Shown here: positions 3,519-47,908 of the stretch, one piece after another
Numbering within the stretch: the first letter of the stretch is position 1
How the letters are laid out: the number at the start of each line of letters is the position of its first letter
Assembly: GCF_900115205.1 (NCBI RefSeq)
Contig: NZ_FOYQ01000001.1
Location: forward strand, 1,205,240-1,269,239
Reading direction: 5' to 3'
Length of the DNA: 64,000 nucleotides
DNA from: Robiginitalea myxolifaciens
GTDB lineage: Bacteria > Bacteroidota > Bacteroidia > Flavobacteriales > Flavobacteriaceae
The notes under the pieces: model-generated
What the model saw: the letters and a program-made list of their open reading frames with translations, nothing else
Databases searched by the model: none
Told to the model about the DNA's origin: nothing
Made by a program: the position numbers and the translations under genes

Positions 3519-4265
3519 ATGAAACTGTTACTCAAAATCTGGCGTCAGAAGAATAACGACTCCAAAGGGAAGTTGGTGGAATATCCCATCAGCGGTATCG
3601 AGGGGGACATGTCCTTCCTGGAAATGCTGGATGTTTTGAATCAGGAATTGATTGAAAAAGGAGAGGAACCTGTGGTCTTTGACCACGACTGCCGCGAGGG
3701 GATCTGCGGATCCTGTTCCCTGCAGATCAACGGAGAACCGCATGGGCCGGATCGGCTGATCACGACCTGCCAGTTACACATGCGCAAATTCAACGATGGC
3801 GACACCATTGTTATTGAGCCATTCCGTGCCACTGCCTTTCCGGTAATCAAGGATCTGATGATCGACCGCTCTGCCTTTGATCGAATTCAACAGGCGGGTG
3901 GATATATTTCGGTAAACACTTCAGGGAATACTGTAGATGCCAACGCCATCCCGGTAGAGAAAGACAAGGCCGACGCTTCCTTCAATGCAGCTACCTGCAT
4001 CGGATGCGGCGCCTGTGTGGCCGCTTGTAAGAACGCCAGCGCCATGCTCTTTACCTCAGCAAAGGTGAGCCAGTTTGCCCTGTTGCCGCAAGGTCAGGTA
4101 GAAGCTGCCGAGCGGGTACAAAACATGGTACGCCAAATGGATTTGGAAGGCTTTGGAAACTGTACCAACACCGGAGCCTGTGAGGTGGAATGCCCGAAAG
4201 GAATTTCCCTGGAAAACATCGCCCGGATGAACCGGGAATACCTCACGGCTTCGGCCAGAGGATAA
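3519..4265 (+). CDS. sdhB: Succinate dehydrogenase iron-sulfur subunit SdhB
   Basis: A 248-residue electron-transfer subunit. The N-terminal [2Fe-2S] domain carries CREGICGSC (about 62-70) with a further Cys in TTCQLH. The C-terminal dicluster domain carries [11 protein letters not shown] (about 154-164) and [15 protein letters not shown] (about 215-229), the ligands for the [4Fe-4S] and [3Fe-4S] centres. It links the SdhA flavin to the SdhC hemes. Last gene of the operon, followed about 60 bases later by a strong rho-independent terminator. Confidence 0.97.
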
Positions 4266-19886: not shown

Positions 19887-20864
19887 ATGCCACGAATTCT
19901 TACAGGGGTCCAAAGCACGGGGACCCCGCATTTGGGGAACATACTCGGAGCCATAGAACCGGCAATTGCCATGGCTGGTGAGCCCAAAAACGAGTCTTTT
20001 CTTTTTATTGCAGACCTGCACTCATTAACGCAGATTAAGGACGGTTCTGTACTGCGGGAGAACACCTATGCCACTGCAGCCGCCTGGATGGCTTTTGGCC
20101 TGGATACGGATAAAACGGTATTCTACCGCCAGAGTGACGTGCCCCAGGTTACGGAGCTCTCCTGGTACTTAAGCTGTTTCTTTCCCTATCAACGCCTGAC
20201 GCTGGCCCATTCCTTTAAGGATAAGGCAGACCGCTTGGAAGATGTGAATGCGGGTCTTTTTACCTACCCCATGCTTATGGCCGCAGACATCTTGCTTTAC
20301 GATGCGCATTATGTACCCGTGGGTAAGGACCAGTTGCAGCATTTGGAAATGACCCGGGATGTGGCCTCCCGGTTCCATGCACAATTGGGGGAAACCTTTG
20401 TTTTACCGGAGGCTAAAGTCCAGGAGCAGACCATGTATGTTCCCGGAACAGATGGTCAAAAGATGAGTAAAAGCAAGGGCAACCTGATCAATATCTTTCA
20501 GCCCGATAAAGCCCTGCGCAAGCAAATTATGGGCATTCAAACCGATTCAACGCCACTGGAAGATCCGAAGGATCCCGAATCCGATACCGTTTTTGCCCTG
20601 TATCGATTACTGGCTTCAGAAGAAGCGGTAAATGAAATGCGGGAGAATTATCTGAAAGGGGGATATGGGTATGGGCATGCCAAGCAGGCCCTGTATCAAT
20701 GTATCCTGGAACGATTTGCGGAACCCCGGGAGCGATTCGAAACCCTGATGAGCAACCGTCAAACCCTCGACGAAGCACTATTTCAGGGGGCCGAAAAGGC
20801 GTCCAAAGTGGCCGAAGAAGTCCTGAATCGGGTACGAAACAGGCTGGGATACTCCAATCGATGA
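19887..20864 (+). CDS. trpS: Tryptophanyl-tRNA synthetase
   Basis: A 325-residue class Ic synthetase that charges tRNA-Trp. The HIGH-type motif is GTPHLGNILG (about 11-20), the second signature is GQKMSKSKGN (KMSKS, about 190-199), and PMLMAADILLYDAHYVPVGKDQLQHLE is typical of TrpRS. Full length, ATG start. It is convergent with dprA; the 187-base gap between them contains two operator-like palindromes. Confidence 0.96.
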   Translation: MPRILTGVQSTGTPHLGNILGAIEPAIAMAGEPKNESFLFIADLHSLTQIKDGSVLRENTYATAAAWMAFGLDTDKTVFYRQSDVPQVTELSWYLSCFFPYQRLTLAHSFKDKADRLEDVNAGLFTYPMLMAADILLYDAHYVPVGKDQLQHLEMTRDVASRFHAQLGETFVLPEAKVQEQTMYVPGTDGQKMSKSKGNLINIFQPDKALRKQIMGIQTDSTPLEDPKDPESDTVFALYRLLASEEAVNEMRENYLKGGYGYGHAKQALYQCILERFAEPRERFETLMSNRQTLDEALFQGAEKASKVAEEVLNRVRNRLGYSNR

Positions 20865-20875
20865 AATGCACATAA

Positions 20876-20891
20876 CCGACCCGGCGGTCGG
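20876..20891. promoter_or_regulatory. Operator-like palindrome A1
   Basis: CCGAC-CCGGCG-GTCGG. Same half-sites and spacing as the sites before tetR and patatin. It lies 12 bases after the trpS stop codon. Its partner A2 begins exactly 126 bases later. Confidence 0.55.
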
Positions 20892-21001
20892 AATACGAAC
20901 CTTTTATCGGAGAATTTAAGCCCTCTTCCCTCGCTTTTCGGAACTTTTTCCTCGTTAAGCTACCTGAAAGGTGTACTTTGAGCACTTGTGATTGACCATT
21001 A

Positions 21002-21017
21002 CCGACTATCCGGTCGG
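21002..21017. promoter_or_regulatory. Operator-like palindrome A2
   Basis: CCGAC-TATCCG-GTCGG, with arms extended to ACCGAC/GTCGGT. No convincing gene starts next to it on either strand: dprA ends at 21052 from the other side. It forms an orphan pair with A1. Confidence 0.55.
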
Positions 21018-21051: not shown

Positions 21052-22185
21052 TCAGAAACCAGCTTTCCGGACCCAGGAATAGCTTTTTCCCGGAAATCCT
21101 TGTATCAAACCTTCCATTTCCATTAAAAAAAGCTCCTGATTGAGCAAGGCGGGGGGAATTTTAGTGGCGATCAAGAGCGCATCGATCTGGCACTTTTGCC
21201 GGTCTCGCAGGAAGGTGGCGATTGCGACCCGGGAACGCGACCAACCGGCCGGAAAGCTCGCCTCACTATTTGGAATGGATTCGGTTAATGGAGCTTTTTC
21301 CTGAAGCGATGACTTCCAATTTAAGGCTACTGCCAGTTCTCCGGCGCTTCTCAAGAGTTGTGCGCGCTGCTGGGAGATCAATCGATTGCATCCGGCGCTC
21401 ATTGGATCGCTCAATCGCCCCGGAACGGCAAATACCTCCCGGTGATACCCCAGGGCGTAGTCTGCAGTGACCAGGCTCCCACCCTGATCCCCCGTTTCAA
21501 TGACCACTGTGGCCTGCGCCATCCCAGCGATTAAGCGATTCCTGCGGAGAAAATACTCCGGCCTGGGCCGAATTCCAGGAGGAAATTCCGAAATAAGCCC
21601 CCCCTGATTCATTATAGCCAGGGCATCGGCCTGGTGCGCACTGGGGTAAATGCAGTCCAATCCGTGTGCCAGGCAGGCTATAGTCTGCAACCCACTTTTA
21701 AGGGCTGCCCGTTGGCCGCAAATATCCACCCCATAGGCCAGGCCACTAATGATAATGGGATTATGCCGTTGAAGCTCCTGAATAAACTCCCTGCAGAAAT
21801 CCCGTCCATAAGGAGTCATACTACGGGTTCCAACTACGGCCAGGCCCGGGCTGGCATTGGCCTGAATCTTTCCCTTGCAATACAACACAAGGGGCGCATC
21901 CGGGCATTGGTTCAGATAGTCCGGGTACTCTTGGTGCTCATAGGAAATCACAGTTATCCCAAGCTTGAGGGCCCGGTTGTAGTACCTTTCGGCCTGTTTG
22001 AGGTACTGATCCATGGCCAGGGATTCTTGTAGCCGCTCTGAAAGCCTGGGGAGCTCCTGAGGCCATTCACCGGAAAAAATCGCGGCTGGTCTGTCAAAAT
22101 ATTGGAGGAATTTTCGGCTGCTTACGGGGCCTATACCCGGGATTAAACTTAGCCTGATTAGCGCAATAATTTGTTTATCAAGCAC
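21052..22185 (-). CDS. dprA: DNA-processing protein DprA
   Basis: A 377-residue DprA. An N-terminal helix-hairpin-like region (RLSLIPGIGPVSSRKFLQYF, about 11-30) leads into the Rossmann-like core: LAVVGTRSMTPYGRD, ISGLAYGVDICGQRAALKSG, GGLISEFPPG, FLRRNRLIAGMAQATVVIE. A C-terminal winged-helix-like tail follows. It loads RecA onto incoming single-stranded DNA during natural transformation; its presence in a genome does not by itself prove competence. Convergent with trpS. Confidence 0.93.
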   Translation of the reverse strand: MLDKQIIALIRLSLIPGIGPVSSRKFLQYFDRPAAIFSGEWPQELPRLSERLQESLAMDQYLKQAERYYNRALKLGITVISYEHQEYPDYLNQCPDAPLVLYCKGKIQANASPGLAVVGTRSMTPYGRDFCREFIQELQRHNPIIISGLAYGVDICGQRAALKSGLQTIACLAHGLDCIYPSAHQADALAIMNQGGLISEFPPGIRPRPEYFLRRNRLIAGMAQATVVIETGDQGGSLVTADYALGYHREVFAVPGRLSDPMSAGCNRLISQQRAQLLRSAGELAVALNWKSSLQEKAPLTESIPNSEASFPAGWSRSRVAIATFLRDRQKCQIDALLIATKIPPALLNQELFLMEMEGLIQGFPGKSYSWVRKAGF

Positions 22186-22282
22186 TTAATTTCATTTTGA
22201 AGCGTTGGATGTAAAGAATCTGTTAATAATTGAGCCCCGTGCGGTTTGCAAATAGCCTTAAAATTTTCCCATATTTGTGTTG

Positions 22283-23248
22283 ATGAACGCCGCGCAACAC
22301 ATAGAAGCTCTATTGTACCGCTACCAATGCGTGGTGGTGCCTTCTTTTGGTGCGTTCCTCACACAAATTAAACCGGCCTTCCTGCAAGCCGATAGCAATA
22401 CCTTCTTTCCACCCTCGAAAACGGTATCCTTCAACAGCCAACTCCAGACCAATGACGGACTCCTGGTCTCTCATATCGCCAGGGAAGAGGGCAAGACCTA
22501 CGAGGAAGTTCTCGCAGAGCTGGAGCAACTGGCCAGCCTTTGGTCCCGGACCCTGAGAAGGGAAGGGACTTTGCGCATGTTCCCATTGGGAATATTCCGC
22601 AGAAACGGGGAAGGGAAATTGCTGTTTGAGCCCGAGGAGAAAAATAACTTCCTAACGGCTTCTTTCGGACTCAGTCCCGTTCGGGCGAATCCGGTTATCC
22701 GCGAGGTCCTGAAGGAAGAGGTTGCTGAGGTGGAGCAACGCATCCCATTTACCTTTACACCAGAGCGCCGCAAGATTGTGGGGCTTCATCCTGTGTTTAA
22801 ATATGCCGCTATCGCTTTGCTGGCCCTAACCGCAGGGGTGTCGGCCTATACGTTTAACCAGGACTTTAAAGTAAATGACGCCCAGGTGCGCGCCGAGGCC
22901 CAGAAAGAGGTAACCCGCCAAATTCAGGAAGCTACTTTCTTTTCCAATAATCCCCTGGAACTTCCCACTTTAACGCTGGAGGTTGTTCAGGAGGAAGCAC
23001 CGGCACCTGAAATTTTCGAAGCAAGGCACCACATTATTGCCGGCGCATTCCGCGTTCGGGCGAATGCCGAAAAGAAAATCCGCCAATTAAAACGCCGTGG
23101 TTTTGACGCCCGTTATATTGGTGAGAATGCTTACGGGCTTCACCAGGTGGCTTATGGTTCTTACGTCGAGGCCGAAGAAGCCCTCGAGAAGCTTAAGGAA
23201 ATAAAGCAGCAAGTATCCCAGGACGCCTGGTTGCTCTCGCAACGATAG
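22283..23248 (+). CDS. HU-CCDC81-like and SPOR domain protein
   Basis: A 321-residue bitopic protein. The N-terminal 160 residues (HIEALLYRYQCVVVPSFGAFLT..., EGTLRMFPLGIFRRN) resemble the HU-CCDC81 bacterial domains. A transmembrane helix follows (about 175-195, FKYAAIALLALTAGVSAYTF). The C-terminal SPOR domain (about 245-320, HHIIAGAFRVRANAEKKIRQLKRRGFDARYIG) binds denuded glycan at division sites. It is therefore a candidate septal protein. I chose ATG 22283 over the adjacent GTG/TTG codons at 22277 and 22280. Confidence 0.8.
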   Translation: MNAAQHIEALLYRYQCVVVPSFGAFLTQIKPAFLQADSNTFFPPSKTVSFNSQLQTNDGLLVSHIAREEGKTYEEVLAELEQLASLWSRTLRREGTLRMFPLGIFRRNGEGKLLFEPEEKNNFLTASFGLSPVRANPVIREVLKEEVAEVEQRIPFTFTPERRKIVGLHPVFKYAAIALLALTAGVSAYTFNQDFKVNDAQVRAEAQKEVTRQIQEATFFSNNPLELPTLTLEVVQEEAPAPEIFEARHHIIAGAFRVRANAEKKIRQLKRRGFDARYIGENAYGLHQVAYGSYVEAEEALEKLKEIKQQVSQDAWLLSQR

Positions 23249-43365: not shown

Positions 43366-43507
43366 AGTTGGTCGGTGCTTAAGGAAAGGTTGTTTTCCAG
43401 GCTATTGGTAGCAAACTGCATCAAAATGTTACAGCTGAGCTAAAATTAGGGGAAACGGGCCTGCAAAAGCAAGAGGATGCTTAATTTTGCACATATTTTT
43501 TTATGCT

Positions 43508-44557
43508 ATGAGCGATTTTCATGCCTTGCGGGTTTCTCAAGTTCGCAGATTAACACCCGATGCTGTCGAAGTATCTTTCCTACTCCCAGAAGACAAAAAA
43601 GGCACTTTTGCCTTTTCGGCAGGACAGTATATAACCCTGAAGACCGAATTGGAAGGAAAGGAAGTAAGACGCGCCTATTCCCTGTGTTCTGTTCCGGGAA
43701 CGGATACCCTGAGTGTAGGAATCAAGAAAGTACCAGATGGTACATTTTCTGTTTACGCCAATGATTCCCTGCAGTCCGGGGATACCCTGGAGGTGATGCC
43801 TCCGGAGGGTCGCTTTACTTACGAGTCGGGTCAGGGGATACAAACCCTTGCCGCCTTCGCTGCGGGAAGTGGTATTACCCCGATTATGAGTATAGTTCAG
43901 CAGGCGCTCCAATCGGATCCGGATGTTCGGGTAGTGCTGGTCTACGGGAACCGAAGTACGGAAAGCGTCATGTTCCGCGAAGAACTCCAGGAATTAACCG
44001 ATTTATATTCCGATCGGTTTTTTCTTTACCATACCTACAGCCGCGACCGGGAGGATAATGCCCTCTTTGGCCGGATAGAAAACAGTACCGTAAACTACGT
44101 CCTGAAGAATAAACATGCGGATTGGGAGATCGATCGCTTTTACCTCTGCGGTCCCGAGCCGATGATTCGCGAGGTGGAATCCAGCTTGCAAAACTCAGGA
44201 GTCCCAGAATCCAAAATCCTGCATGAACTGTTTACCAGTAGCGAATCCGAAGCCGATCTTTCTGAAGTTAGCGAGGGGATGACCCGGGTTAGCGTAATCC
44301 TGGACGAACAGGAAACCACTTTGGAAATGGATGCCAAGGATCGCATCCTCGACGCCATACTGGAGGCGGGTATCGATGCCCCCTACAGCTGCCAGGGTGG
44401 AGTTTGTAGTACCTGTATTGCCAAAATCTCCGAAGGGAAGGCAACCATGGCCAAAAATCAGATCCTGACCGATTCGGAAATCGAGGAGGGGTTAGTGCTC
44501 ACCTGCCAGGCGCATCCAACCTCCCCATCTATTCGCGTAGATTACGACGACGTATAG
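43508..44557 (+). CDS. PaaE-type ferredoxin-NAD(P)H reductase
   Basis: A 349-residue electron-transfer protein with three domains. FAD domain: RRAYSLCSVPG (about 52-62, RxYS). NAD(P) domain: AAGSGITPIMSIVQQAL (about 112-128) and FYLCGPEPMIREVE (about 212-225). C-terminal plant-type [2Fe-2S] domain: PYSCQGGVCSTCIAK plus a last Cys in LTCQAHP. It matches the reductase of phenylacetyl-CoA epoxidase (PaaE) and related oxygenase reductases, but no oxygenase genes are near, so the partner is unknown. The start is ATG 43508; a TTG at 43487 adds seven non-conserved residues. Confidence 0.88.
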   Translation: MSDFHALRVSQVRRLTPDAVEVSFLLPEDKKGTFAFSAGQYITLKTELEGKEVRRAYSLCSVPGTDTLSVGIKKVPDGTFSVYANDSLQSGDTLEVMPPEGRFTYESGQGIQTLAAFAAGSGITPIMSIVQQALQSDPDVRVVLVYGNRSTESVMFREELQELTDLYSDRFFLYHTYSRDREDNALFGRIENSTVNYVLKNKHADWEIDRFYLCGPEPMIREVESSLQNSGVPESKILHELFTSSESEADLSEVSEGMTRVSVILDEQETTLEMDAKDRILDAILEAGIDAPYSCQGGVCSTCIAKISEGKATMAKNQILTDSEIEEGLVLTCQAHPTSPSIRVDYDDV

Positions 44558-44576
44558 TATTTTCTGGGGGTACAAG

Positions 44577-45368
44577 CTAACTAGCCTGGTCTTTCAGGTA
44601 GTCGTCCATGACCTTTCGGGCATAGTCTTTCCCGATCTGATAGGCCTTTTCGATTCCCGCTTTGTCCAATACGTTGATCTTCTCGAGGTTTAAGGGCTCA
44701 AAAAGCAGGTCGCTTTTTATGATCCGCTCTTTGTTGATCGCATAGAGCATCAGGCTTGTTGTGCGATTGGTCAATTGAAACGAGGAGCTTATGGCCTTCT
44801 TTTCCACGGTCTCAATTACGGAAACATTACTTCCCACCAGGAATTCAACGTGTTCTTCCAGGGGGGAGCGCGGAAAATTGTCCATAATCCCGCCGTCGGC
44901 ATATAGACCTTTACCGATCTGAACCGGGCTGAAAATCGGGGGAAGTGCCGCAGAAGCCAATAAGGCGGGGATAAGTTCCCCTTGGTGGAAGTATACGACA
45001 TCCCCATTGAGCAAATCGGTTGCTGCTACATAGAGGGGTCTGCGAAGGGATTCGAAACTGTTCTCAGGCCATTGTGCCTTAAACAAATCAAAGTAGCGGT
45101 CCGTATTGAGGAGTCCCGGTTTACTCAGGCTAAAAAAGCTGTAACGGAACAAGGGGGTATTCTTAAAAAAAGCCAGCATTTCCTTTGAGGAAGCGTCCTG
45201 GGCATACAAGGCTCCGATCAGGGCTCCCACACTACTTCCGGAAACCCAATGAGGTTGTAATTCGTACTCCTTTAATACTTCCAGGATCCCGATATGGGCC
45301 ATCCCCCGAACTCCACCCCCCGAGAGGATCAATCCGCATTGCTTTTTATCTGGCCAGTTGCCTTGCAT
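44577..45368 (-). CDS. Patatin-like phospholipase
   Basis: A 263-residue lipid acyl hydrolase. The oxyanion hole is LSGGGVRGMAHIG (about 12-24), the GxSxG nucleophile motif is VSGSSVGALIGAL (Ser about 46), and the catalytic Asp is in YADGGIMDNFP (DGG, about 165). No signal peptide, so probably cytoplasmic. I place the start at ATG 45368: the longer frame from 45416 would translate an operator palindrome (45393-45408) as RNRPDGR. The palindrome ends 24 bases before this start, which indicates repression by the nearby TetR regulator. Confidence 0.88.
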   Translation of the reverse strand: MQGNWPDKKQCGLILSGGGVRGMAHIGILEVLKEYELQPHWVSGSSVGALIGALYAQDASSKEMLAFFKNTPLFRYSFFSLSKPGLLNTDRYFDLFKAQWPENSFESLRRPLYVAATDLLNGDVVYFHQGELIPALLASAALPPIFSPVQIGKGLYADGGIMDNFPRSPLEEHVEFLVGSNVSVIETVEKKAISSSFQLTNRTTSLMLYAINKERIIKSDLLFEPLNLEKINVLDKAGIEKAYQIGKDYARKVMDDYLKDQAS

Positions 45369-45392
45369 TTTACCTTTTATCGATTCCACTAT

Positions 45393-45408
45393 CCGACCGT
45401 CTGGTCGG
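45393..45408. promoter_or_regulatory. Operator-like palindrome B1 before the patatin gene
   Basis: CCGAC-CGTCTG-GTCGG, 24 bases upstream of the patatin start codon on the minus strand. A partner (B2) begins exactly 126 bases further upstream. Confidence 0.65.
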
Positions 45409-45518
45409 TTTCGCATCAGTTCGTCGTAAAATTAATCAAGGAATTGACCTTTTGACGGAAAAAATGGAGGGCTTGGCCCTAATAATTTTACCCAGGGTTT
45501 CGACCAAAGGTTGCGGAA

Positions 45519-45534
45519 CCGACTCCACAGTCGG
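45519..45534. promoter_or_regulatory. Operator-like palindrome B2 between patatin and the AhpD-like/arsS genes
   Basis: CCGAC-TCCACA-GTCGG, with 7-base arms AACCGAC/GTCGGTT, the most perfect copy. On the minus strand it is followed after six bases by AACCTTTG, close to the -7 consensus TAnnTTTG. It also lies 142 bases upstream of the divergent gene at 45677, so it could act on both promoters. Confidence 0.65.
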
Positions 45535-45676
45535 TTTTGGAATTTCATCGAAATACAATAAAAATCCCCCTTCGCTGTAATGGAAACCGACCTCTTCCGA
45601 CCTAGGATCAGGTGGTATTTCCATTCCCTGGAGAGAACATTAAACCCGTATCTTCACGAAATAAATTCAAAAGCTT

Positions 45677-46012
45677 ATGGCATCTAATTATTACGATCCG
45701 GCAGACCTTAGGAAATTTGGAAATATTACGGAATGGAGTGAAGAACTCGGGACCAAGTTCTTTGAATACTATAATAAGGTATTTGAAGAGGGCGCCCTGA
45801 GTGCCCGTGAGAAGTCGCTGATTGCCCTGGCAGTTGCCCACGTGATTCAATGCCCGTATTGCATTGACGCCTACACCAAGGATGGCCTGCAACGGGGTAT
45901 TACCAAAGAAGAAATGATGGAAGCCGTGCACGCCGGCGCCGCTATAGAGAGCGGGGCCACCCTTGTACACGGGGTCCAGATGATGAATAAGTACAACAAA
46001 CTATCCATGTAA
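45677..46012 (+). CDS. AhpD-like peroxidase-family protein associated with arsenosugar radical SAM
   Basis: A 111-residue carboxymuconolactone decarboxylase/AhpD-family protein. The redox motif is HVIQCPYCIDAYTKDGLQRG (CxxC at about 57-60), followed by ITKEEMMEAVHAGAAIESGATLVHG. It matches the small peroxidase-like family that neighbours the ArsS radical SAM gene in many genomes (known to me as TIGR04169). Its stop codon abuts the arsS start, so the two are translationally coupled. The redox partner and substrate are unknown. Confidence 0.88.
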   Translation: MASNYYDPADLRKFGNITEWSEELGTKFFEYYNKVFEEGALSAREKSLIALAVAHVIQCPYCIDAYTKDGLQRGITKEEMMEAVHAGAAIESGATLVHGVQMMNKYNKLSM

Positions 46013-47068
46013 ATGGCTACAAAATCCCTGAAAGCCCGGCAAAGCGACCTGGCCAGCACCCAAAATCAATTGGATTACCTAGAAGGTGGCCTATTTGCCT
46101 CCGGCGAACTTCCCCGCTTCAAGGATAAACTCGCAGACGCCGGCCTGACCGCGTTAAAACCCAAGGCCCTTGAGATCCTGCAGATCAATCTTGGCTATAT
46201 GTGCAACCAGGTCTGCGCGCACTGCCATGTCGATGCCGGGCCTGATCGCAAGGAAATCATGACCAGGGATACCATGGAACAATGCCTGAAAGTTATCCGC
46301 ACCACCGGTGCGCATACCCTGGACTTAACCGGAGGCGCCCCGGAAATGAATCCGGATTTCCGCTGGTTTGTAACCGAGGCTGCCAAAGCTGGGATTCAGG
46401 ATTTCATCGTCCGGTCTAACCTGACTATAATTCGCGCCAACAAAAAATACCACGACCTGCCGCAGTTTTTTGCCGAACACAATATTCATGTTGTTTCGTC
46501 CATGCCCCATTATACCCGTGGCAAGACCGACCGACAACGCGGGGATGGGGTTTTTGATAAATCCATCCAGGCCCTCAAAGACCTCAACGCAGTAGGCTAT
46601 GGGATGCCCGATTCTTCCCTCCGGCTCGATTTGGTTTATAATCCTTCTGGAGCATTTTTGCCCGGGGATCAGGCCTCGCTGGAACTGGATTTCAAACAAG
46701 CCCTGCGCGAGGACTTCGGAATCGAGTTCCACAACTTATTCGCCATTACCAACCTGCCAATCTCCCGTTTTCTGGAATACCTTATCGCCTCTGAGAACTA
46801 TGAGGATTATATGACAGCGCTGGTGGAAGCCTACAATCCGGAAGCTGTCAAGAATGTCATGTGCACCAACACCTTATCCGTATCCTGGGATGGTTGGCTG
46901 TACGACTGTGACTTCAACCAGATGCTCGACCTTAAAGTAGATACCCCCCTGCGGCATATTACTGACTACAACGAGCAGGTGCTCCAGGATCGGAACATTA
47001 TTATTTCGCAGCATTGCTATGGATGCACGGCTGGTTCTGGAAGTAGCTGTCAGGGCACCGTGGCGTGA
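46013..47068 (+). CDS. arsS: ArsS-type radical SAM protein (arsenosugar biosynthesis family)
   Basis: A 351-residue radical SAM enzyme. The cluster motif is LGYMCNQVCAHCHVDAG (C-x3-C-x2-C, about 62-69), with LDLTGGAPEMNP (GGxP-like SAM contact) and IVRSNLTI after it. The C-terminal half has CTNTLSVSWDGWLYDCDFNQML and the terminal Cys-rich QHCYGCTAGSGSSCQG. This is the family annotated as arsenosugar biosynthesis radical SAM (seleno)protein ArsS (TIGR04167); here Cys occupies the positions and there is no in-frame TGA. ArsS is thought to act after ArsM, which is not present in the window. Confidence 0.88.
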   Translation: MATKSLKARQSDLASTQNQLDYLEGGLFASGELPRFKDKLADAGLTALKPKALEILQINLGYMCNQVCAHCHVDAGPDRKEIMTRDTMEQCLKVIRTTGAHTLDLTGGAPEMNPDFRWFVTEAAKAGIQDFIVRSNLTIIRANKKYHDLPQFFAEHNIHVVSSMPHYTRGKTDRQRGDGVFDKSIQALKDLNAVGYGMPDSSLRLDLVYNPSGAFLPGDQASLELDFKQALREDFGIEFHNLFAITNLPISRFLEYLIASENYEDYMTALVEAYNPEAVKNVMCTNTLSVSWDGWLYDCDFNQMLDLKVDTPLRHITDYNEQVLQDRNIIISQHCYGCTAGSGSSCQGTVA

Positions 47069-47127
47069 TTTAAAGGTCATTTCGAGAAATTCACCCTGTC
47101 GTTTATCCGCTTTTTAAGGGCGTTTAA

Positions 47128-47143
47128 CCGACCGAGCGGTCGG
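47128..47143. promoter_or_regulatory. Operator-like palindrome C1 upstream of tetR
   Basis: CCGAC-CGAGCG-GTCGG within AACCGACCGAGCGGTCGGTC; a further CGGTT follows. It begins 59 bases after the arsS stop and 166 bases before the tetR start. Confidence 0.65.
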
Positions 47144-47255
47144 TCGGTTCTTTCAAAAATCGGGTAGTTCATCGGATATTTTACCGCTTATCGATTCTTT
47201 TGGGAAATTCGCCGGAATGTTCTGAAGGCTTCCTGGCATCGCGGGTTCTTTGTAT

Positions 47256-47271
47256 CAGACCACAAGGTCGG
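47256..47271. promoter_or_regulatory. Operator-like palindrome C2 immediately upstream of tetR
   Basis: CAGAC-CACAAG-GTCGG: one mismatch in the left arm, same 6-base spacer, 22 bases before the tetR ATG and 128 bases after the start of C1. The weaker site lying nearest the gene would fit graded autoregulation. Confidence 0.55.
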
Positions 47272-47293
47272 TTGACCCCAAATCAACAATATC

Positions 47294-47908
47294 ATGGACA
47301 AGAACCTAAAACGTATGGCTACGGTACACCGTATGCAAACCACAGGCCTGGAATTATTCTATAAGCAGGGCTACTACAACACCAGTATTGATGACATCCT
47401 CAAAACCCTGGGAATGTCCAAAGGTGCTTTCTACTACCACTTCCAATCCAAGGAGGAATTCTTTATCAGTATTGTGCAGCAACTGGTTTTCCGAAAGGTG
47501 TACAGCATGATGATCGAACCTATAGAAGATCAGAACAACCCATTCCACGCTATCGAAACCTGTCTGGACGATGCGCTGCAAACTGCTGAATTCAACGAGA
47601 TGGATTACGGTTTTGTACTGGCGAACTTTATGAATGAGTTCAACGGAAGGAACGAAAAGATCATGAAATTCCTGATGGATACCTGTAAGGTGTGGGAAGT
47701 AAATATTGTTACCGCGCTCCAAAGAGGTAAAACCGATGGTTTTGTTGAGCGCCATGTAAATAGTGAAGGTGTAGCACAGTACATTATTTCCTCCTATTTC
47801 GGGATCCGTACGCTAATGGTTAATGGAAACTGTAAGATTCTGAGGTACAATTACATTCAACAAATGCGGAATTACTTCCGCTCCCTGTCTCCTGTAGTTA
47901 TTGCCTAA
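47294..47908 (+). CDS. TetR/AcrR-family transcriptional regulator
   Basis: A 204-residue one-component regulator. The N-terminal helix-turn-helix domain is TTGLELFYKQGYYNTSIDDILKTLGMSKGAFYYHFQSKEEFFISIV (about 16-60), the classic TetR pattern. The C-terminal ligand/dimer domain (about 65-200) is helical and not of a class I can name. Two palindromes with TetR-like geometry precede it and the same sites precede the patatin gene, so it is probably autoregulated and controls that lipase. The inducer is unknown; a lipid or acyl-CoA is a guess. Its 3' end overlaps the convergent GT9 gene by 11 bases. Confidence 0.93.
   Translation: MDKNLKRMATVHRMQTTGLELFYKQGYYNTSIDDILKTLGMSKGAFYYHFQSKEEFFISIVQQLVFRKVYSMMIEPIEDQNNPFHAIETCLDDALQTAEFNEMDYGFVLANFMNEFNGRNEKIMKFLMDTCKVWEVNIVTALQRGKTDGFVERHVNSEGVAQYIISSYFGIRTLMVNGNCKILRYNYIQQMRNYFRSLSPVVIA

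Follow-up and report, generated by a model that had tools for sequence, protein, structure and literature searches.

A palindrome pair of fixed spacing, upstream of tetR and at further loci, in Robiginitalea myxolifaciens and related Flavobacteriaceae

Operator pairs generally come to light at individual promoters. Among the proteins that serve for comparison here, GalR belongs to the LacI family, NemR-type autoregulated repressors of the TetR family use one operator or close ones, and SlmA, the TetR-family nucleoid occlusion factor of Escherichia coli, has palindromic sites that are not tied to promoters and are spread over the chromosome. At gal the operators lie 113 bp or 11 turns apart, HU binds at the loop apex, and repression is likewise obtained at 103, 123 and 133 bp (PMC4693257). 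RefZ of Bacillus is a TetR-family protein with five conserved, near-palindromic sites in the oriC region, two per chromosome arm and one near oriC, and it shows that a member of this family can work through a small number of sites around the origin (PMC6657595). Here we describe an element made of two CCGAC-N6-GTCGG palindromes about 126 bp apart in a stretch of 64,000 nucleotides of Robiginitalea myxolifaciens (contig NZ_FOYQ01000001.1, positions 1,205,240 to 1,269,239; this whole stretch is called the window), where one copy lies at the promoter of a tetR gene and others lie elsewhere.

With NemR-type repressors the system shares the protein fold and a palindrome beside the repressor's own gene, but a second operator lies 126 bp away and a third motif is added. 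With SlmA it shares a TetR-family protein and palindromic sites without a promoter tie, whereas SlmA sites are spread and those found here are clustered, and the TetR protein scores 18.8 bits against the SlmA model NF007015 for a cut-off of 120. As in the GalR-HU repressosome, two 16-bp operators lie whole turns apart (about 126 bp and 12 turns, against 113 bp and 11 turns at gal), and where gal has a bending-protein site at the apex, a motif lies near the centre here, for which a bound protein may be proposed. Unlike GalR, the protein falls in the TetR and not in the LacI/GalR family; motif copies also occur outside the palindromes, and a single length is used at several unrelated loci in many genera, whereas gal is one operon that tolerates 103 to 133 bp. 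RefZ is likewise a TetR-family protein with a handful of sites at conserved places, and the elements here may resemble its sites in lying in the origin region, but RefZ sites occupy both arms, whereas here the sites form fixed-distance pairs, which in one congener (G002) lie on one side of the GC-skew flip. Among open PubMed Central papers, judged by titles and abstract openings, we found no description of such elements and no Bacteroidota study of TetR-type marking of chromosome places. What would be new is the combination of TetR autoregulation with a standard composite element reused at several loci.

A scan of the window recovered all the sites reported by a first-pass annotation of the sequence, namely five exact palindromes and one copy with a single mismatch. 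They form three pairs, A, B and C, with start-to-start distances of 126, 126 and 128 bp (Table 1), and a whole-genome scan added a fourth, D, of 126 bp (C3:1136043/1136169), about 69 kb outside the window. The same annotation had put the chance expectation at 0.06 occurrences, which is arithmetically right for ten fixed bases at even base composition, but the rarity of the palindrome did not hold up as a signal. Single exact sites number 9 in the whole genome against 2 for a reversed control pattern, but the control is the commoner in six of nine relatives (site/control: G001 2/9, G003 6/12, G004 5/12, G005 4/9, G006 5/13, G009 7/9) and the sites only in G002 (8/6), G007 (7/6) and G020 (14/2); palindromes with at most two mismatches number 27 in the window against 23 expected. 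Single exact palindromes are a weak signal, and the finding is their spacing.

Across ten genomes compared for exact sites (nine of Robiginitalea and Pseudozobellia thermophila, G020), all 12 distances below 1 kb between neighbouring exact sites fall at 125-128 bp, with G001, G004 and G005 contributing none, and a search for exact pairs over 99 genomes gave matches in seven (R. myxolifaciens, five congeners and G020). When partners with at most two mismatches were allowed within 300 bp of an exact site, they clustered at 124-128 bp, other distances having one match each and 299 bp two; 14 loci (L001-L014) were omitted from this analysis and from those of gene place and spacer words, and longer copies of the same places were used. 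In the analysis of gene place, one pair with two mismatches lies inside a gene (L053, from G003) and is taken as chance. A profile trained on the tetR pairs, with no distance rule, was run over 1.46 Mb around 80 tetR orthologues, with pairs starting within 200 bp of tetR excluded, and it returned 53 pairs at 123-127 bp against 29 across the remaining bins from 24 to 299 bp. Pairs one turn off are nearly absent from the same scan (one at 114-119 bp, one at 132-137 bp). At 10.5 bp per turn, 126 bp corresponds to 12.0 turns and 128-129 bp to 12.2-12.3, so that the helical phasing proposed at first stands as a near-constant distance of about 12 turns; because pairs one turn shorter or longer are almost missing, phasing alone is no explanation, and one length (123-129 bp) is in use. 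By eye the spacers of these further pairs near tetR loci appear unrelated, and pairs at orthologous places are not independent.

The element is kept upstream of tetR well beyond Robiginitalea. Orthologues were sought with an eight-sequence alignment in 84,980 species genomes, and the counts refer to the best 80 loci of 183 relatives, which by their titles come from genera of Flavobacteriaceae or from wider Bacteroidota bins. With up to 7 mismatches in 20 positions and distances of 123-130 bp allowed, a pair precedes tetR at 72 of the 80 loci, spaced 124-129 bp, and the best pair is mostly unchanged when 118-134 bp is allowed. With a plain regular expression, applied like the promoter-box counts below to 77 of these loci, 76 pairs separated by 60 bp or more were found in the DNA preceding tetR, and 70 of these fall at 123-130 bp; a downstream control stretch gave a single pair. 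In Eudoraea and relatives (L115, L117, L119-L122, L124, L126) another element, whose arms are of the GAAAC or CAAAC type, lies about 480-525 bp upstream of tetR, in tandem and roughly 315-360 bp before the tetR element.

Element A has a different setting, between the 3' ends of a convergent trpS-like gene and dprA, with no gene start adjoining. It is kept at the 3' end of dprA in five other sampled genera: among 30 dprA loci searched (40 of 41 genomes had a dprA match), a pair is present in G000, the genome of the window, and in G010, G020, G035, G041 and G046; its spacing is 125-127 bp in every case, and nothing with another spacing between 60 and 200 bp passed. A tetR orthologue was sought at E 1e-30 in 35 genomes, including the 29 with a dprA locus besides G000, and was found among the latter in G010, G020, G027, G035, G041 and G046. 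The dprA pair accordingly occurs in six of the seven genomes with tetR and in none of the 23 without.

A third motif, missed together with the clustering of the elements in the first description, occupies set positions relative to the palindromes. In an unseeded count that included the tetR elements, TTATCG-type words are enriched in the spacers (CGATAA in 53 of 151, 8.2 expected), some top-ranking words stemming from the tetR promoter itself. The seed TGCATTTTATCGATTT was chosen by eye from its central position in elements of both groups, tetR and other, and an expectation-maximisation search of whole spacers, on both strands and with no position term, retained the consensus TGCATTTTATCGATTT. 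Of 150 elements, 84 have its best match beginning 52-54 bases from site 1 and 31, these being tetR elements, at 34-35. For a cross-test, 33 near-duplicates were removed from the 150 (tetR elements from 79 to 50, others from 71 to 67), and one overlapping duplicate in the window (47132) was dropped. Training on the 50 tetR elements placed the best match at offset 51-55 in 33 of the 67 others, where 40 shuffles averaged 3.6 and never exceeded 7. Above a lower threshold, copies at -31/-29, -22 and +35 belong almost only to tetR elements, copies at +74 occur in both groups, and copies 20 bases beyond site 2 only in the others; further copies stand at +53/54. About half of the elements carry a fixed-place motif near the centre, with its core about 8 bp off the centre. 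Of eight strong matches in the window, four fall within or next to the three pairs; the totals for five shuffled windows were 0-2. The other strong copies, without adjoining palindrome pairs, are at window positions 3872, 13496, 41127 and 52158. The motif may also serve independently of the pairs. In element A of G035, G046, G010, G041 and G020 the core ATCGATAA stands at the same place.

The TetR protein was proposed as the binder from the start, and this has gained in weight: it is the probable binder because the palindromes lie at the tetR promoter (the 22 bases between the end of palindrome 2 and the ATG were found as described) and because the dprA pair accompanies tetR. It matches TetR_N (PF00440) with 54.7 bits for a cut-off of 24, and its AlphaFold2 model (pLDDT 91.2) has 3qbm, NemR (4yze) and 3eup among its best solved matches, the comparison with 4yze giving Z 20.4 and an rmsd of 2.2 over 190 aligned residues; the modelled fold is that of an ordinary TetR repressor, near NemR among others. 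The arms of the palindromes also suggest protein half-sites rather than RNA hairpins, since the two 5-bp arms are complementary throughout in only 51 of 134 non-tetR sites.

From the pairs, their single length, the motif with its offsets and the co-occurrence with tetR, all of which are present in the sequence itself, we infer binding, looping, a second protein and repression. TetR would bind each 16-bp palindrome as a dimer. The composite site would measure about 142 bp and read palindrome, about 37 bp, TGCATTTTATCGATTT, about 57 bp, palindrome, at the commonest offset, 53. A second protein, probably a bending protein of the HU/IHF kind, would occupy the third motif, and the two TetR units, about 12 turns apart, would close with it into a nucleoprotein complex, looped or wrapped, on the pattern of GalR and HU at gal. 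IHF itself, considered as a binder of the motif, is not claimed. We give this complex of two TetR dimers and a bending protein slightly better than an even chance, and it is the likeliest form of the looping or cooperative repression suggested initially, although the elements are not only promoter operators, element A having no gene start. At tetR the palindrome 2 of element C abuts a -7-like box, and therefore the complex would shut off tetR, an autorepression. It would lie upstream of the start of the TIGR04282-like glycosyltransferase and exonuclease-like genes found at other elements, probably regulating both, and at the trpS-like/dprA junction it may act on read-through, antisense RNA or local chromosome structure. 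The gene at 22277-23248 (+), divergent from dprA and one gene from element A, encodes a protein that combines two HU-like CCDC81 domains with a SPOR domain; with DNA-binding-type and septum-type domains in one chain, this protein is a candidate partner.

Several observations weigh against this complex. No passing pair was found at 8 of the 80 tetR loci, one of which (L176) has too little upstream DNA, and these loci are orthologous, hence their spacing is partly inherited. Elements at tetR are also 2-3 bp longer than the others. G027 has tetR and no dprA pair, some genomes without tetR are incomplete, and the seven tetR genomes are the seven best dprA matches of the 30, possibly a single clade, so that the co-occurrence does not amount to 30 independent points. 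Because the seed was chosen after both groups had been viewed, the cross-test of the third motif is only partly independent; moreover, the best match lies outside 51-55 in 34 of the 67 non-tetR elements, and in the Robiginitalea element A the motif is weak or elsewhere. A -7-like box at site 2 is missing from elements A (0/8) and D (0/7), and TAnnTTTG occurs within -30 to +96 in 4 of 23 B elements, once at -12. Finally, one length dominates here whereas gal tolerates several, so we would expect a stiffer complex than a plain loop, with the second protein setting the length. A single length across many genera and unrelated loci, together with a motif at fixed offsets, looks like the blueprint of one defined protein-DNA machine, most parts of which could be tested at once with one purified protein.

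Table 1. Palindromes, third-motif matches and neighbouring genes in the window (window coordinates).
Feature	Position	Strand	Remarks
Element A palindrome 1	20876..20891	none	CCGAC-N6-GTCGG; pair kept at dprA 3' end
Element A palindrome 2	21002..21017	none	126 bp from palindrome 1
Element B palindrome 1	45393..45408	none	patatin/CMD gap
Element B palindrome 2	45519..45534	none	126 bp from palindrome 1
Element C palindrome 1	47128..47143	none	tetR promoter
Element C palindrome 2	47256..47271	none	one mismatch; 128 bp on; 22 bases before tetR ATG
Third motif TGCATTTCATCGATTG, element A	20855..20870	-	score 16.3; 5 bases outside palindrome 1, at trpS stop
Third motif, element A, offset 22	20898..20913	+	score 12.2
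Third motif TACCTTTTATCGATTC, element B, offset -22	45371..45386	+	score 16.0; just outside palindrome 1
Third motif GACCTTTTGACGGAAA, element B centre, offset 53	45446..45461	+	score 10.1
Third motif GGAATTTCATCGAAAT, element B, site 2 +20	45539..45554	+	score 14.1; just outside palindrome 2
Third motif GGTAGTTCATCGGATA, element C, offset 35	47163..47178	+	motif match
TTCTTTGTA, -7-box-like	47246..47254	+	directly before element C palindrome 2; putative promoter role
tetR, 204 aa	47294..47908	+	TetR_N PF00440, E 8.7e-15; probable binder
Class I Trp/Tyr-type tRNA synthetase gene (PF00579), labelled trpS here	19887..20864	+	convergent with dprA
dprA (PF02481)	21052..22185	-	element A kept at 3' end
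Patatin-like phospholipase gene (PF01734), longest frame	44577..45416	-	inner ATG near 45368 is an alternative start
Arsenosugar biosynthesis-associated peroxidase-like protein	45677..46012	+	TIGR04169, 197.5 bits, cut-off 120
arsS, arsenosugar biosynthesis radical SAM protein	46013..47068	+	TIGR04167, 440.5 bits, cut-off 300; upstream of element C

The alternative that fares best is a chromosome-address system like that of RefZ or SlmA, in which a few origin-proximal sites would serve segregation, replication control or division and tetR autoregulation would be a by-product; we consider it possible, though rather unlikely. It draws on where the elements lie. Four fall within 116 kb in G000, four within 133 kb in G002 and six within 349 kb of the 5.0 Mb of G020, clusters that random placement would give with chances of 1.9e-4, 2.1e-4 and 1e-5, computed after the fact. 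In G002, a single contig of 3.53 Mb, the GC skew turns from minus to plus at about 0.79-0.86 Mb (40 samples, noisy, with one at 2.88 Mb contradicting the sign of its arm); the only dif-like site, at 2517 kb, and the 16S genes, at 1336 kb (+) and 2808 kb (-, split into two pieces), are consistent with this flip, and the four elements, at 585-718 kb, lie roughly 70-280 kb from it. About 0.63 Mb of samples and loci of this genome held no further pair. In G041 tetR lies at 1.548 Mb and the skew flips at 1.6-1.7 Mb, though a dif-like site at 2.93 Mb gives unequal arms; in Maribacter thermophilus (G100) tetR lies at 2.962 Mb and the flip at 2.9-3.2 Mb. In Muriicola marianensis, on a contig of 2.39 Mb, dif stands at 299 kb and tetR at about 1727 kb, which is weakly in line with origin proximity. 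In a metagenome-assembled genome (G099), by contrast, about 45 kb separate tetR from dif; the GC skew of this assembly (CP070778.1, L120) reverses repeatedly and the assembly looks scrambled or misassembled, but it is still a contrary case. The elements are thus near the origin in three of the five genomes examined. As an origin marker dnaA is misleading in G002, where it lies at C1:2781959, about 1.5 Mb around the circle from the skew flip and nearer dif.

The placement of element A between convergent genes, its retention in five other genera sampled, and the precedent of RefZ, also speak for such an address. On the other side, the TetR protein scores below the cut-offs for RefZ (NF037937, 23.6 bits, cut-off 180) and for SlmA; no chain of either was among the best 50 matches of each fold-search program, which excludes nothing. 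All four G002 elements lie on one side of the flip, where RefZ sites occupy both arms. The elements are mostly oriented towards a gene start, and the genome-wide counts come from pairs with at least one exact palindrome. Gene order near the origin is often conserved, so that both clustering and proximity may be inherited and could be explained without function. As a tentative extension, doubtful as it stands, the looped complex and the address may be joined: TetR and its second protein would build a standard 142-bp wrap at four to six addresses near the origin, of which the tetR promoter is only one, and would organise, segregate or time the origin region as an independent Bacteroidota counterpart of RefZ or SlmA that uses paired sites. 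The convergent, often origin-proximal copies do raise the question of whether a TetR repressor of ordinary appearance could double as a marker of places on the chromosome. The parS/ParB system was rejected as a candidate: the palindrome is unlike the parS consensus, parS has no match in the window at up to two mismatches and one at three, and the only ParB_N matches, at 3166 kb in G002 and C3:252 kb in G000, are far from the elements.

The gene context bears on a second alternative, ordinary promoters with two independent TetR operators and an activator site, whose distances would be set by RNA polymerase without any loop; this seems improbable to us. When the elements are oriented by the motif, site 2 mostly faces tetR, an exonuclease-like gene or the gene of a TIGR04282-like glycosyltransferase, of which one protein was tested and scores 104 bits, short of the cut-off of 134; this is as the reading would have it. 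Patatin, before which one of the pairs was first placed, is not a constant neighbour, the gene on the side of site 2 being more often one of these three. Element B lies between the patatin gene and that of the arsenosugar-associated peroxidase-like protein, element D follows the 3' end of an ogt-like gene and precedes an exonuclease-like gene, and at the Ulvibacterium-type loci L166 and L167 the element falls between the 3' ends of PaaE-like and patatin genes. The distance of 24 bases given for patatin holds if the inner ATG near 45368 is the start, whereas the longer frame from 45416 runs through the palindrome.

The Bacteroidota -7 box is TAnnTTTG. At tetR elements a box of this kind abuts site 2, which favours this reading: in the non-redundant set (n=49), TAnnTTTG stands at -11 in 6 and a TTCTTTGTA-like box at -10 or -9 in 15. 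No site-2 box is found in A or D, however, and only one in the 23 B elements; in the remaining elements TAnnTTTG occurs in 5 of 27, at +48 to +85. Site 2 lies anywhere from about 20 to more than 100 bp from the start codon while the distance between the palindromes is fixed, element A has no nearby start, and a constant distance is not called for by operators that are unlinked. Scanning 44900-47400 for sigma-70 promoters was uninformative, with 2 promoter-like matches against 3.3 expected.

That the palindromes are intrinsic terminators or RNA hairpins, since they fold and some are followed by T, is very improbable: there are five terminator-like matches in 44900-47400 (2.8 expected), one of them on 47127-47144, element A sits between convergent genes and arm positions 1 and 2 covary somewhat (86 and 89 of 134 sites, 63.5 and 66.4 expected), but arm complementarity is too low, and neither a fixed 126-bp distance nor co-occurrence with tetR would be expected. 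Scans of the window with Rfam at gathering cut-offs and for tRNA gave no matches. Short mobile repeats of the REPIN or MITE kind, which would likewise give two palindromes at a set distance in several copies per genome, are just as hard to credit, given spacers that look unrelated within a genome, copies at orthologous places in different genera, and the four to six elements found per genome (G000, G002, G020).

The tetR gene itself has a recurring neighbourhood, which at 43487-47068 of the window comprises the genes for a PaaE-like reductase, patatin, the TIGR04169 protein and ArsS. In relatives the TIGR04282-like glycosyltransferase joins it, and at three loci there is a gene for an arsenosugar-type ArsM. 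A ligand of TetR might be sought in this arsenosugar/patatin neighbourhood. The first observation of paired palindromes was right, and the system is larger than first described.

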